This document shows, piece by piece, positions 57,934-63,493 of a stretch of 64,000 nt of DNA. Positions within the stretch are counted from its first letter, which is position 1, and every line of letters starts with the position of its first letter. The stretch is from positions 1 through 64,000 of the forward strand of contig JASJDJ010000001.1 in assembly GCA_030065635.1 (NCBI GenBank). The letters run 5' to 3'. Under the pieces are notes generated by a model that did not search any database, was not told the origin of the DNA, and saw nothing but the letters and a program-made list of their open reading frames with translations. This stretch comes from Xenococcaceae cyanobacterium MO_188.B32. GTDB lineage: Bacteria; Cyanobacteriota; Cyanobacteriia; Cyanobacteriales; Xenococcaceae. A program made the translations under genes and the position numbers.

Positions 57934-58246
57934 ACAAATCTAACAAACAGCTCTCTTAAATTTCTGCAAATGTCTGACAGGATGTCTGACAGGATGTCTG
58001 AGAAGTATAATTAGTCACTTAGATCGAGAGCGATCGATTCAACAATTTGACGAAAAAAGTAGCTTTCGATTGAGTCAATCCTATTTAATAGATAGCTTCT
58101 TTCGACTTTTCAGACATCCTCTTAGAATACTTGGCTTTTTTCCCTCTAAATTTTCAATAAAGAATCGATTTTCAGGTATTAAAGACACCAAGCGAGGATG
58201 TTTAAAACTATTGTTACATCAGGGTTTTAGATTTATTCAGCAAACC

Positions 58247-58408
58247 CTATATATGTTCGACTTTAGCTGCTAACTTTTCTAACTCTTGAGGGGATAGGGC
58301 CCAACCAAGAATCATTCCTGTTGCACCACTCAATATAATGGGGAGAAAATTCCAATCAGAATGACTTATTTTTAGGGAAGCTCGATTTAATTTACTATTT
58401 GCTATCAT
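58247..58408 (-). CDS. Possible 53-residue small membrane protein
   Basis: From ATG 58408 to TAG 58247-58249: MIANSKLNRASLKISHSDWN, then a hydrophobic helix FLPIILSGATGMILGWAL and SPQELEKLAAKVEHI. Composition looks protein-like, but the ribosome binding site is weak. No family recognised. It may be a real small protein or the surviving piece of a larger gene. On the other strand a longer frame (58070-58273) has no protein character. Confidence 0.4.
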   Translation of the reverse strand: MIANSKLNRASLKISHSDWNFLPIILSGATGMILGWALSPQELEKLAAKVEHI

Positions 58409-58529
58409 TTTTCTTGACTTATAATTGCTCTACATTCTTCTATTAATTAGGTAAAGAGCATAATTTTTATGCAGTCTTAGAAATTTTCTACAAATTAAAT
58501 AAATATTAAAATCGGGACTTAAACAAAAA

Positions 58530-58757
58530 TTAAGCCCAAACAAAGCCTAAATTCGCTTTATAAGCTATGAATACGTCACGATTATGATTCGGCCATTGGA
58601 CAAAACGATAAGACATGGCTGTACGAAAAGCCTCTAATGCTTCAGGAAATGTGTTCAAAGGTGCCGAATGCACTGCCACTTTCCACCTCGAATTCAATTC
58701 GAGGTGGGTTAGCAGTTTATTTTGTTCGTCTGTAAAATAATTACGCCAGTTAAAAGA
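58530..58757 (-). pseudogene. C-terminal gene remnant (about 75 codons)
   Basis: A minus-strand frame bounded by TAA at both sides reads FNWRNYFTDEQNKLLTHLEL, then WKVAVHSAPLNTFPEALEAF and RTAMSYRFVQWPNHNRDVFI, ending GFVWA. It is strongly protein-like (Trp, Tyr, Asn-rich) but has no usable start, so it is likely the end of a lost gene. Family not recognised. A perfect inverted repeat with 11-base arms (CACCTCGAATT, 58684-58706) lies inside it. Confidence 0.4.
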
Positions 58758-58833
58758 TTATTGGGATGAATCTATTTTGGGAATTACGCTATAAATTCAG
58801 TGTTATTGTTAACAAAATAGTATTACCTTTCTA

Positions 58834-61290
58834 CTATTCTCCCCAGTTAACATTGGTTAAGTCAGCATTAGTTAAGTCAGCATTAGTTAAGTCGGCATTA
58901 GTTAAGTTTGCCCCCATTAATTTTGCTCTACTTAAATTAGCTCCTTGAAGATTGGCATTAGTTAAATCTGCTGCAATTAGTTTTGCTCCTGACAATTGAG
59001 TATTGGCTAAATTGGCTTGTTGTAAATTAGCAGAAATAAAATTAATATTGGTTAAGTTTGCTCCTGCTAGATTTATCTTAGCTAAATTGGCAGAACGAAA
59101 GTTTTTTCTACCTAAAGCAAAACTGGTTAAAAGATTATCGCGATCGCTGACACTGAGAGTTCTCTTTGGTAAGCTTTTCCAGATAAAGGTAAATGTATCT
59201 TTGCTTTTTAATACTTGTTTTATTTCATCATAAAAAGGATAATCGCCAATACCACTAAGATTAACCCAACCTCTAGCCCTAGTTAAAGCGACAAATAGCT
59301 GATTGCGGAGATAAATATTACTTTCATCTTTAGCAATAAAATCTGCACCAATTACATAAACCATGTCTGCTTCTTGTCCTTTAGCACGATGAATTGTAGT
59401 AATAGTGATTGCTCCTTCGCACCAAAATTTATTGGCTCGATCTTGGTTTGATTCAGTCTGAAGAAGATTATAATTACTACTGCTGGGAAGATAAATAGTA
59501 ATATTTTGTTTCATTAAGAATCTAGCTGTTTGTCGTGCTAGTTCGGCTGCATCATTAAAAGAGCCTAAAATGATTACTAATATTTCTCGAGCAGGACGTA
59601 ATCCATCGTGACGAAGATTATATTTAATGTTATTAGTTAAAACGGTTAATTCTTGCTGACGAGAAGGATAAGTTTTAAATTCAATTATTTCTCCTTGCCA
59701 TAATTCGGTAAGAGGATTAGGAGAATTATTAGGAGGACGTTTGAGAGTAATTTGTTGTCCTGTTGCTAATTTTCCTGTTACTTGATAACCAATTGCCAAC
59801 CATTCTTCTGAATTTGTAAAGCCTGCTAGCATTCCTTGGGGACGTAACCAGCCCATCCCTATTCCATGAGCAAAGGTTAAAATTTGATGAGGAGTGCGAT
59901 AGCAACGAGACATTATTTCTGTTTTATTAATCCCATTAGGATATTTGCCTGTAACTAAATGTCCTAATTTATATCCTAATAATTCTCTGGCAGTAGGAAT
60001 TTTTAAACTAGCTAAACTTTGCCCTTCGTCATATGCCCAAATTAATCTTTTTTGCTCGGGATGAATTGGATTTACAGGACGTAATGCTTGATAAGCTAAC
60101 CAATAAAATGGTTGTTTATCTTGATATTTCCAATTGTTAACTACTAGGTCTTGTCCTTCGTCAATTAAAATAGCATCAAACACTTGAGGAATAGTTCTAG
60201 TTTGCAACAGTTGATGACAAATTTCTCCTAAAGCTTCGTTTGGTGCTCGATCGACTGTTTCTCGAACAGTTAGAGAAATACTTCCTGTTAGTTGACAAAG
60301 GGTACTGTAAAAACCTGGTTGGGTTTTTCCTCCCCAAGCATGGAGTATTTTTAAGTTGGAATTGTGACGATCGAAGGTTTGTTGGTTATTAGTAAAGTGA
60401 CGAATCCATTTATCTATTTGCTCGATAATTTTAGGATAGAGACTACGAGAGAAAAAGACAAATGCTATTTGCCAATCGGGATATTTGAGGTGCATTAATG
60501 CTGCTTTTTGACAGAGAATAACTGTTTTGCCAGAGCCAGCTATTCCTCTTATTTGTTGGGCTCCTGGAGGAATTTGTTTACCAATTTTTTCTTGTTGTAA
60601 GTCTAATTGAGCGAGGCGCGATCGCGCTTGTTGCAAAATACTACTACGGCTTTGTTTATGTGCCAAAATAGGTCGAGAAGATGGGGTGTATAAGAGGGTT
60701 CCACCGAGAATTGAGAGGAGTAATTGCCACTGAGTTTCGGTTAGGTTGTTTTCTGAATTTAGGGATGGTTGTTGTTGAATTTGTTCGCAGATGCACGTAG
60801 ACAAACGCAGATGTTCTTGGAAAAGGATCGGTGGAGAGGTGGGGAGTTGATGTAGATTTTTTTGCTGCCATTGTCGATCGGTGATGTGGGGTAAGGCGAG
60901 CAGAATTCTGGCTGGAATTTGTTTTTTGAGGAGTGGTTCGCGATCGATATATTCTAAGAGAGCAAAAAGTTGATTTTCGGCTTGTTGATAGGGATTACCA
61001 TAATCGGTGTAATAATTTTGGTATTGCCAGCGATGTCCTTGAATATTTACTATTTGTTGGATTTCGATCGCTTTGACTTCAATGATAATTAAACCTAATT
61101 GAAAGTCGGCAATGAGGATATCTGGTTCTTTTCTGAATTTTCCTTGGGGTGAAAAAATAGGATAACGCCAATAGGCTATACATCTTCTGTCAGCAAAAGC
61201 TAATTTAATCGCATTCCAAACTAGTTCTTCTCCTGCTTCTCCTTTGCAATTTAGGGGTTCAGTAATAATAAATTGAGCTTGTTTTTTCAA
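58834..61290 (-). CDS. NERD nuclease - SF1 helicase - pentapeptide-repeat fusion
   Basis: 818 residues. N-terminal NERD domain of the PD-(D/E)XK fold: catalytic RKEPDILIADF (about 53-63) and IIIEVKA (about 68-74). Next a UvrD/Rep-type superfamily 1 helicase: Walker A GIAGSGKTVIL (about 249), Walker B AILIDEGQD (about 373), motif III-VI pieces (MSRCYRTPHQIL; TTIHRAKGQEADMVYVIGAD; LFVALTRARGW). The last 90 residues are pentapeptide repeats (FRSANLAKINLAGANLTNIN; ADLTNADLTNADLTNVNWGE), a fold that can mimic DNA. The combination suggests a DNA-processing or phage-defence protein. No methylase or partner gene is adjacent. Confidence 0.88.
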   Translation of the reverse strand: MKKQAQFIITEPLNCKGEAGEELVWNAIKLAFADRRCIAYWRYPIFSPQGKFRKEPDILIADFQLGLIIIEVKAIEIQQIVNIQGHRWQYQNYYTDYGNPYQQAENQLFALLEYIDREPLLKKQIPARILLALPHITDRQWQQKNLHQLPTSPPILFQEHLRLSTCICEQIQQQPSLNSENNLTETQWQLLLSILGGTLLYTPSSRPILAHKQSRSSILQQARSRLAQLDLQQEKIGKQIPPGAQQIRGIAGSGKTVILCQKAALMHLKYPDWQIAFVFFSRSLYPKIIEQIDKWIRHFTNNQQTFDRHNSNLKILHAWGGKTQPGFYSTLCQLTGSISLTVRETVDRAPNEALGEICHQLLQTRTIPQVFDAILIDEGQDLVVNNWKYQDKQPFYWLAYQALRPVNPIHPEQKRLIWAYDEGQSLASLKIPTARELLGYKLGHLVTGKYPNGINKTEIMSRCYRTPHQILTFAHGIGMGWLRPQGMLAGFTNSEEWLAIGYQVTGKLATGQQITLKRPPNNSPNPLTELWQGEIIEFKTYPSRQQELTVLTNNIKYNLRHDGLRPAREILVIILGSFNDAAELARQTARFLMKQNITIYLPSSSNYNLLQTESNQDRANKFWCEGAITITTIHRAKGQEADMVYVIGADFIAKDESNIYLRNQLFVALTRARGWVNLSGIGDYPFYDEIKQVLKSKDTFTFIWKSLPKRTLSVSDRDNLLTSFALGRKNFRSANLAKINLAGANLTNINFISANLQQANLANTQLSGAKLIAADLTNANLQGANLSRAKLMGANLTNADLTNADLTNADLTNVNWGE
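58856..58900. repeat. 15-bp tandem repeat in the pentapeptide region
   Basis: Three near-identical copies of GTTAAGTCAGCATTA (58856-58870, 58871-58885, 58886-58900, the last with one A to G change), in frame and encoding three ADLTN units on the minus strand. Copy number could change by slippage, lengthening or shortening the beta-helix without a frameshift. Confidence 0.9.
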
Positions 61291-61324: not shown

Positions 61325-62800
61325 CTACTTTTTTAATGGTAAAACTAGGGTAAAAGTCGCTCCTTGGTGCAAACGACTATATAGTTGAATTGTGCCTCCA
61401 TGGGCTTGAGCGATCGCTTTGACAATAGAAAGTCCTAAACCCGTACTTTTTGTACCACGATTATTCGAGCCAGTTTGAAAACGTTGAAAAATTTTCTCTT
61501 GTTCCTGTTCGGCAATGCCAGTCCCGGTATCGCGCACCCATAAGCGAAGATAGTTTTTATCGATAGCAGAACCAATAGCTATAGTATCTTCTGGATTAGT
61601 ATGCTTGGTAGCGTTTTGTGCCAAGTTGGTAATTGCCTGAACTAATCTCTGACGATCTACTAAAATTGAACCCGTTCCGACTTCATCTAATTGCCAATGG
61701 CGATCGGCGATAACTTTGGCTTTGGTGTATATTTCTTCAGTTAGAGTACTAACTTTAATGTTTTCTAATTGTAAAAAGTCTGGTTGTTCTGATTTGGCGA
61801 GGAACATCAAATCGGCAATAAGGCGGTTCATTCGTTCTAGTTCGTCTAAAACTACTTCTTTAGTTTCCTGTTGTTCTTCGAGAGTATCACCCATCAATTC
61901 TAAATGCCCTTGAACAATAGTAATTGGTATTCTAAGTTCGTGACCCACATCATTAAGAAAGTTTTTCTGAGTATTAAATGCAGATTCGAGGCGATCGAGC
62001 ATTTCATTAAAGGTTATGCTGAGTTGGGCAACTTCATCATCTCCCTTAACCTCGATACGTTGTTTTAAGTTGCTTTCTGTAATTTTCTGCGCTGTTTTAG
62101 TTAGTAAGCGTAAAGGAGTTAAAATTCTACCGGCAAAAATCCAAGCCAGAATAGAAGTAATTGCTACGGCTATTAGTGTTACCTGAATAATAATAAACAT
62201 AGCTTTTTGAACTTCCTGGCGAGCGCTTTGAGTGGCAATAGCCACGACAAAAACCCCCCGCACTTTGCCCCTAATCTCAATTGGTTCTGCCCAATATTCA
62301 ATTTGCTGCTCACAATTATCTACTTTACCGCGCTCTTGGTCGGTAAGCTTTTGCCAGTGTCTGACCATTTCTGAGTTGCGGTCGATCGATGGTGGTAATT
62401 TTTCGGGATAGGGAATAGAAGCATGAAAACCGTCTGGTAGTAAAGCAATAGTATATTCATTAAAGATCGGTATATTGCGTTTGAGGAATACATCAAAAAT
62501 GGCTCTAATATTTTCACCAAAAGGTTGTGCTGTGTTGGGGTCATTACCACCTACCAACAAACGAAATTCTCGTATTTCCTGATCGAGAGCCTGTTCGATT
62601 CTGGTCTCAAGACGAAATAATAAAACTCGACGAATTGCTAAAACTGCGGATGAAAAAGATAACAAAATTAACAAACAATATACCGCCAGAATCCGAATCT
62701 GAAAGCGGTGCGACCCTGCGGAAGTCTCCTCCGCACTGGGTAGCGCACCAAGAGATCTGTAAGATATATCCTGTCGATTTTGGTCTTGATTTTTTCTCAT
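61325..62800 (-). CDS. Membrane sensor histidine kinase
   Basis: 491 residues from ATG 62800, with TAGGA seven bases upstream; a start at 62851 lacks one. Two membrane helices flank a periplasmic sensor of about 135 residues (RILAVYCLLILLSFSSAVLA; VTLIAVAITSILAWIFAGRI). HAMP follows, then HisKA with the phospho-His in FLNDVGHELRIPITIVQGHL, and HATPase_c (NLAQNATKHTN; RDTGTGIAEQEQ; GLGLSIVKAIAQAHGG). No response regulator gene is next to it. Residues about 15-33 (SLGALPSAEETSAGSHRF) are encoded by a palindromic repeat element. Confidence 0.92.
   Translation of the reverse strand: MRKNQDQNRQDISYRSLGALPSAEETSAGSHRFQIRILAVYCLLILLSFSSAVLAIRRVLLFRLETRIEQALDQEIREFRLLVGGNDPNTAQPFGENIRAIFDVFLKRNIPIFNEYTIALLPDGFHASIPYPEKLPPSIDRNSEMVRHWQKLTDQERGKVDNCEQQIEYWAEPIEIRGKVRGVFVVAIATQSARQEVQKAMFIIIQVTLIAVAITSILAWIFAGRILTPLRLLTKTAQKITESNLKQRIEVKGDDEVAQLSITFNEMLDRLESAFNTQKNFLNDVGHELRIPITIVQGHLELMGDTLEEQQETKEVVLDELERMNRLIADLMFLAKSEQPDFLQLENIKVSTLTEEIYTKAKVIADRHWQLDEVGTGSILVDRQRLVQAITNLAQNATKHTNPEDTIAIGSAIDKNYLRLWVRDTGTGIAEQEQEKIFQRFQTGSNNRGTKSTGLGLSIVKAIAQAHGGTIQLYSRLHQGATFTLVLPLKK
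62707..62749. repeat. Palindromic repeat element inside the kinase coding region
   Basis: 43 bp: GGTGCGACCCTGCGGA at the left and TCCGCACTGGGTAGCGCACC at the right are an imperfect inverted repeat with an AGTCTCC centre. It is GC-rich against the gene, and similar sequence occurs in the spacer at 40565-40690. It lies in frame near the 5' end of the histidine kinase and adds a short cytoplasmic tail before the first membrane helix. Confidence 0.75.
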
Positions 62801-62923
62801 CTCAATTCCTACAGTAACAGCGATCGCTACCAGAGAATAAAAACAATTCAACTTTTATTGGTTTATACTCCCCATGAGGGGTATTTTAATCCTGTTTGTG
62901 TTTACTTTGTACTGTAGATTACT

Positions 62924-63493
62924 ATGTTTTTTTCTTCTTTAGAACAAACTTTAGCTCAAATTACCAACCAACCTGGTTGGGAAAAATATCAACAGTACCG
63001 TCAATTACTTGAATGCTGGCAACAAATAGTAAGTAAAAAAATAGCCCAACAAACTCGTCCTCTTTATATCAATAGACAAGTTCTTTGGGTTGCTACTTCT
63101 AGTTCTGTTTGGGCACAAGAGCTTACTTTACAAAGACATACTCTTCTCAAACAACTAAATACCCACTTAGCTTTTTCTCTTAAGGATATACGCTTTTCTT
63201 CTAGTCAATGGCAACAGACTGGCGATCGCAATTTATTAGGGCAAAATAGCCAAGATCGGCACTCATTGCATCCTAGTTACATAAATATTAATGCTGCCCA
63301 AATTGATAACGACCGCTTACCTTTAGTTAACGCTCCCCAAGCCGTAGTTCAACGCTGGCTTACTGTACTTCAAGAGCGATCGTCTAATTTATCTGTTTGT
63401 CCTCAATGCCATTCTCCTACTCCTGAGGGCGAACTTAAACGCTGGTTTTTATGTTGCCATTGTGCAGCTAAGAACTGGTCAGACAAATATTAA
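62924..63493 (+). CDS. DciA-like DUF721 protein with zinc ribbon
   Basis: 189 residues. The DUF721/DciA core (LLECWQQIVSKKIAQQTRPL; LWVATSSSVWAQELTLQR) is predicted to load the DnaB replicative helicase, replacing DnaC. The C-terminus carries a zinc ribbon (CPQCHSP ... LCCHCAAKNW), a form seen in cyanobacteria. Full length. Divergent from the kinase; the 3' spacer follows. Confidence 0.88.
   Translation: MFFSSLEQTLAQITNQPGWEKYQQYRQLLECWQQIVSKKIAQQTRPLYINRQVLWVATSSSVWAQELTLQRHTLLKQLNTHLAFSLKDIRFSSSQWQQTGDRNLLGQNSQDRHSLHPSYININAAQIDNDRLPLVNAPQAVVQRWLTVLQERSSNLSVCPQCHSPTPEGELKRWFLCCHCAAKNWSDKY

Follow-up and report, generated by a model that had tools for sequence, protein, structure and literature searches.

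The window analysed here comprises the first 64,000 nucleotides of contig JASJDJ010000001.1 of Xenococcaceae cyanobacterium MO_188.B32. On its minus strand we read a single uninterrupted frame of 818 codons (58834-61290) that encodes a NERD nuclease domain, an SF1 helicase and a pentapeptide-repeat beta-helix (Table 1). All three Pfam domains were matched above their cut-offs within this one chain: NERD (PF08378) with 30.5 bits (curated cut-off: 22.1), UvrD_C_2 with 49.2 bits (cut-off: 27.4) and Pentapeptide, at residues ~719-815, with 85.7 bits (cut-off: 20.2). This result confirmed the claim of an earlier note that a nuclease, an SF1 helicase and a pentapeptide tail are joined in one chain. 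A pentapeptide part belonging to a separate gene, which the same note had considered, was ruled out by the shared frame and by 58 homologues with an equally fused tail; these 58 different proteins, together with the tree described below, also excluded an assembly artefact or a recent chance fusion.

The Walker A and Walker B motifs, the C-terminal UvrD motifs and the NERD residues D57, E71 and K73 are intact. Motif content and structural model together show a complete UvrD-like SF1 motor and an intact predicted PD-(D/E)XK site. The cut-off of the STM2767 helicase family (NF053713) was not reached (94.6 versus 550 bits). The source assembly (6.39 Mb) contains one NERD gene, and we found no description of the NERD-helicase-pentapeptide architecture in the open-access literature. 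Seven tailed orthologues are 890-1007 aa long and have 30-110 additional residues, mostly between NERD and helicase.

Table 1. Features of the nuclease-helicase gene and their positions in the window
Feature	Residues	Coordinates	Strand	Remarks
Complete gene (all three parts)		58834..61290	-	818 aa; TTG start; stop 58834-58836
NERD (PD-(D/E)XK) nuclease domain	16-117	60940..61245	-	Pfam match over cut-off; PD-(D/E)XK fold in model
SF1 UvrD-like helicase	196-697	59200..60705	-	Sequence profiles and structure match to UvrD
Walker A (GIAGSGKT)	249-256	60523..60546	-	
Walker B (DEGQD)	377-381	60148..60162	-	
UvrD_C_2 motifs	628-678	59257..59409	-	Pfam
Connector with capping helix	697-725	59116..59202	-	Model secondary structure
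Pentapeptide-repeat beta-helix	726-818	58837..59115	-	Without C-terminal cap helix
Conserved face, coil 2	N750-F751-I752	59035..59043	-	Consensus NLI
Conserved face, coil 3	K770-L771-I772	58975..58983	-	
Conserved face, coil 4	K790-L791-M792-G793	58912..58923	-	
15-bp tandem repeat		58851..58907	-	3.8 copies; 95% matches; encodes the last ADLTN repeats

The gene follows a same-strand histidine-kinase gene at a distance of 14-34 nt in the MO_188.B32 genome and in the sole other sampled congener. In the window this upstream kinase (HAMP/HisKA) occupies 61325-62851, and the pairing was kept in the congener, not elsewhere. A gene at 62924-63493 probably encodes the replicative helicase loader DciA with a C-terminal CxxC...CxxC zinc-ribbon-like end; the Pfam DciA model matched two neighbour proteins, presumably this product and its counterpart in the congener. 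The ~0.8 kb beside the tail end (57934-58766) holds no convincing gene and may contain remnant ORFs.

We compared the locus with 20 other neighbourhoods of up to 20 kb, which gave 21 loci with 118 flanking genes. Among the 21 loci there was no conserved operon and no constant gene partner that would support a repair pathway. The neighbours in the 20 sampled neighbourhoods were housekeeping genes. Upstream neighbours recurred within sub-clades only (Mg-protoporphyrin methyltransferase, DedA/VTT, ExoD and, in the window's genus, histidine kinase), and in lineages outside that genus unrelated genes precede the nuclease-helicase gene. The description of the gene as standing alone is thus correct only in part.

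As nearest named relative we found a Xenococcaceae metagenome-assembled genome (83% identity), with Pleurocapsa and Waterburya next. The NERD-helicase core was present in 73 of 100 relatives; the gene is therefore dispensable, being absent from the other 27. With a stricter E-value cut-off than the one used for these relatives, the core was detected in 57 of 386 genomes that sample the whole phylum. We calculated a tree of 95 full-length homologues, with the tail columns removed from the alignment. The 58 tailed proteins formed one clade (SH-aLRT 100), and the history of the tail comprised exactly one change, i.e. one gain and zero losses. On this tree, the beta-helix is shown to have been acquired in a single fusion and retained by every sampled descendant.

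Among the rows with family codes, tailed proteins span at least 17 families, all of one cyanobacterial order, which includes the Pleurocapsa and Xenococcaceae relatives. Single clades were formed by 11 of the 12 multi-member tailed families, compared with two of the seven tail-less ones. Because of the former count, the tailed gene appears to be mainly vertically inherited; the tail-less gene would be more mobile. Tail-less relatives were also detected as plasmid genes in cyanobacteria, Deinococcus and haloarchaea, and tailed and tail-less kinds coexist in some genomes. Three cyanobacterial plasmid homologues without a tail are annotated as 'pentapeptide repeat protein', a name apparently copied from tailed relatives. 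The tail-less copy on a Chondrocystis plasmid is truncated. In this analysis the nuclease-helicase-pentapeptide combination was seen solely in cyanobacteria. Within its own order it is common and had a housekeeping context in the 20 sampled neighbourhoods, which by the refuting condition given in the earlier note speaks against the function proposed there.

The tail-less NERD-helicases of other cyanobacteria, Deinococcus and haloarchaea, which are annotated as 'nuclease-related domain-containing DEAD/DEAH box helicase', share the order of NERD and SF1 parts with the tailed enzyme (34-55% identity over ~700 aa). Unlike the latter, they have no pentapeptide tail, some are plasmid-borne, their inheritance is less vertical and the cyanobacterial ones have often lost the nuclease lysine. 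The PD-(D/E)XK site residues D57, E71, K73 and Q103 were invariant in all 58 tailed proteins, whereas K73 was missing in 13 and E71 in six of 30 tail-less relatives. By parsimony, K73 was lost at least five times independently, each time on a tail-less branch. The summed branch length was 8.5 for tail-less and 16.3 for tailed proteins; if losses were proportional to branch length, the chance of all five K73 losses being tail-less would be ~(8.5/24.8)^5=0.005. The NERD core (residues 51-125) was the block with the greatest rise in conservation from tail-less to tailed proteins (mean identity 51% within tail-less and 66% within tailed), and the trend of helicase identity was opposite. These comparisons suggest that the tail goes together with a working (predicted) nuclease, an association that stems from a single gain and does not imply cause.

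We modelled the full chain by AlphaFold2 using 82 own-family sequences (pLDDT 90, pTM 0.90). According to the pTM formula (d0 ~9.7 Å), random placement of the tail, which amounts to 104 of 818 residues, is hardly compatible with a pTM of 0.90, and we therefore infer that the tail is set firmly against the core in the model. The helicase part superposed on UvrD with a Z of 26.1 (rmsd 2.9, 362 residues). UvrD, Rep and PcrA have the same helicase fold, with Z reaching 26 at an rmsd of 2.9, but neither a nuclease domain nor a beta-helix. A separate UvrD was present in 100 of 100 relatives. A curated RecC match over cut-off was obtained in none of these 100, with or without the gene; replacement of RecBCD by the enzyme was consequently dropped as a candidate, the distribution offering no informative correlation.

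The best full-length Foldseek match of the model was human SLFN11. With VIA-align, model residues 1-680 aligned with SLFN11 residues 398-897 (9erd, monomer) at a Z of 22.4 and an rmsd of 4.8 over 434 residues. Three other Schlafen alignments gave similar Z and an rmsd near 19, and the domain arrangement agrees in some structures only. The NERD domain alone, superposed from the model, matched Schlafen linkers (SLFN14 399-554, Z 9.2; SLFN12, Z 8.6), with scores that tie with Can2 and exceed those of other PD-(D/E)XK nucleases. When Foldseek was run with the NERD domain alone, SduA and EndoMS came first and no Schlafen protein was among the top 50. In group III Schlafens (SLFN11 and SLFN14) a linker is followed by an SF1 helicase, collinear with the NERD-helicase (residues 1-236, 60583-61290, and the whole model). 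They differ from it by an N-terminal Schlafen RNase core of their own, which is absent here (the chain starts with NERD and gave no Pfam match to the core), and they have no pentapeptide tail. A correspondence of the Schlafen SWAVDL motif to the catalytic strand of NERD was rejected, the motif being helical in SLFN structures. In the Schlafen literature sampled, the linker is given as a connector or as being of unknown function, not as a nuclease. The model supports the view that the NERD-helicase and the Schlafen linker-helicase share fold and order, with direct descent not implied. A PD-(D/E)XK/NERD fold, which the Schlafen literature sampled does not mention, is therefore possible for the human SLFN linker.

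The tail of the 818-aa protein consists of ~18 pentapeptide repeats, and the number varies from ~11 to 26 among tailed homologues. With at least eight contiguous repeats in a quadrilateral beta-helix it qualifies as a pentapeptide protein, and its model superposed on beta1 and HetL with Z ~19 and rmsd ~1. The 15-bp tandem repeat at its end points to a beta-helix that was lengthened recently as repeats were duplicated. In the alignment of the 58 tailed proteins, one of the four beta-helix faces was strongly conserved (N750/I752, K770/I772 and K790/M792), its outward positions being exactly 20 residues, or one coil, apart. Mean surface entropy in these proteins was 0.68 bits on this face versus 2.18 elsewhere. 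The exact permutation test gave its minimum, p=0.0027, for a face that was chosen post hoc and without correction for four faces. By codon comparison with the nearest relative, the tail is under purifying selection (dN/dS ~0.08, versus ~0.15 for the helicase). HetL, which has the same fold as the tail (Z 18.7, rmsd 1.0), is thought from docking models and mutagenesis to bind HetR mainly via one face (PMC7476756) and would be, by analogy, a precedent for one-face partner binding by a pentapeptide protein. HetL and Alr5209-type proteins are free-standing single-domain proteins, however, not fused to an enzyme, and the tail scored under the NCBIfam equivalog cut-offs.

On balance, the gene probably encodes a chromosomally inherited, ATP-driven DNA nuclease-helicase that serves DNA processing and carries its tail as a docking or regulatory scaffold. 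The SF1 motor would load on DNA ends or single-stranded DNA and travel along them, and cutting would be the task of the NERD domain. Through its conserved face (the N-L-I / K-L-I / K-L-M stripe) the rigid beta-helix would dock either within the enzyme itself or on a cellular partner that stays constant, and would position or restrain the nuclease. Most likely, the enzyme processes DNA ends, gaps or stalled forks; that it restricts foreign DNA is possible but less likely. An extra enzyme for DNA-end or gap processing is plausible because RecC was found in none and UvrD in all of the 100 relatives.

A patchy spread is typical of single-gene defence. The earlier note had proposed such a role, and a nuclease-helicase that degrades invading phage or plasmid DNA, with the tail sensing an invader protein, has some points in its favour. 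The helicase part matched the PADLOC model 'Helicase' PDLC03002 at 9.8e-85 and, more weakly, the NERD+UvrD and GajB models, and NERD is present in other defence systems (PMC10952713). PDLC03002 is not diagnostic, since the model begins after the NERD domain and also matches in seven of 14 well-known control genomes. The tail-less relatives, plasmid-borne in part and less tree-like in their inheritance, would also fit defence, and the wider family may have such a role. The tailed proteins, in contrast, are mainly vertically inherited and have housekeeping neighbours. PADLOC detected no complete defence system among the 118 flanking genes of the 21 loci, where its matches were generic, methyltransferases foremost; a defence island was found near none of these loci. 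Other genes of the window were likewise discarded as defence candidates, their PADLOC matches being mainly to PD-T4-6 models and read as ordinary protein kinases. Moreover, the conservation of one tail face suggests that any partner stays constant and does not change fast. No homologue was found in phage records at E 1e-10; viral contigs gave 11 matches of at most 33% identity, and none of the matched stretches reached the tail repeats. Single-gene defence is thus mostly unsupported, and we consider it unlikely for the tailed enzyme.

Less likely still is a tail that acts as a passive stabiliser or solubility cap and makes no specific contact. Its variable repeat number and the near-identical 15-bp copies that encode its last repeats are what a passive tail would permit, but the stripe on one face that is conserved across the families, the low dN/dS and the coupling to nuclease integrity speak against it. 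Very improbable, finally, is a DNA-mimic tail that inhibits gyrase or a DNA-binding protein of phages, as the earlier note had suggested, or that keeps its own enzyme inactive by occupying the DNA groove. The tail does share the fold of MfpA (90 residues superposed with Z 17.4 and rmsd 1.0). DNA-mimic pentapeptide proteins, however, are dimers formed via C-terminal helices, as used by MfpA, Qnr and AlbG, and are reliant on electrostatics (PMC8145042). These two defining features are lacking here because the tail is near-neutral (net charge +2 in the 818-aa protein, median -1.5 over the 58 tailed proteins), with lysines rather than acids on its conserved face, and because by sequence and model the chain terminates within the beta-helix, where no dimerising C-terminal helix follows. 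The scores are also far under the curated cut-offs of the Qnr (31.1 versus 240) and MfpA (23 versus 360) families, so that with these proteins the tail has the fold alone in common. On these three grounds we rejected DNA mimicry.

We return to the enzyme as a DNA-processing nuclease-helicase with a docking tail. A wider reading, which we put forward tentatively and rate as possible rather than probable, joins it to the Schlafen comparison: the NERD-helicase would correspond, in prokaryotes, to the C-terminal half of vertebrate Schlafens, the SLFN linker would be a degenerate PD-(D/E)XK/NERD nuclease in front of the SF1 helicase, and the beta-helix, gained in this cyanobacterial branch, would be a permanent docking module that protects the nuclease from loss. 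If the Schlafen match holds, it would provide an explanation for an unexplained human domain. Enzyme-fused pentapeptide domains are poorly understood (PMC8145042). Here, the tail was fused once, was kept across at least 17 families and has a defined conserved face, and the active-site residues are invariant in the tailed branch. The tailed enzyme would thus allow a test of whether a pentapeptide beta-helix can serve a DNA enzyme as a module for docking or control.
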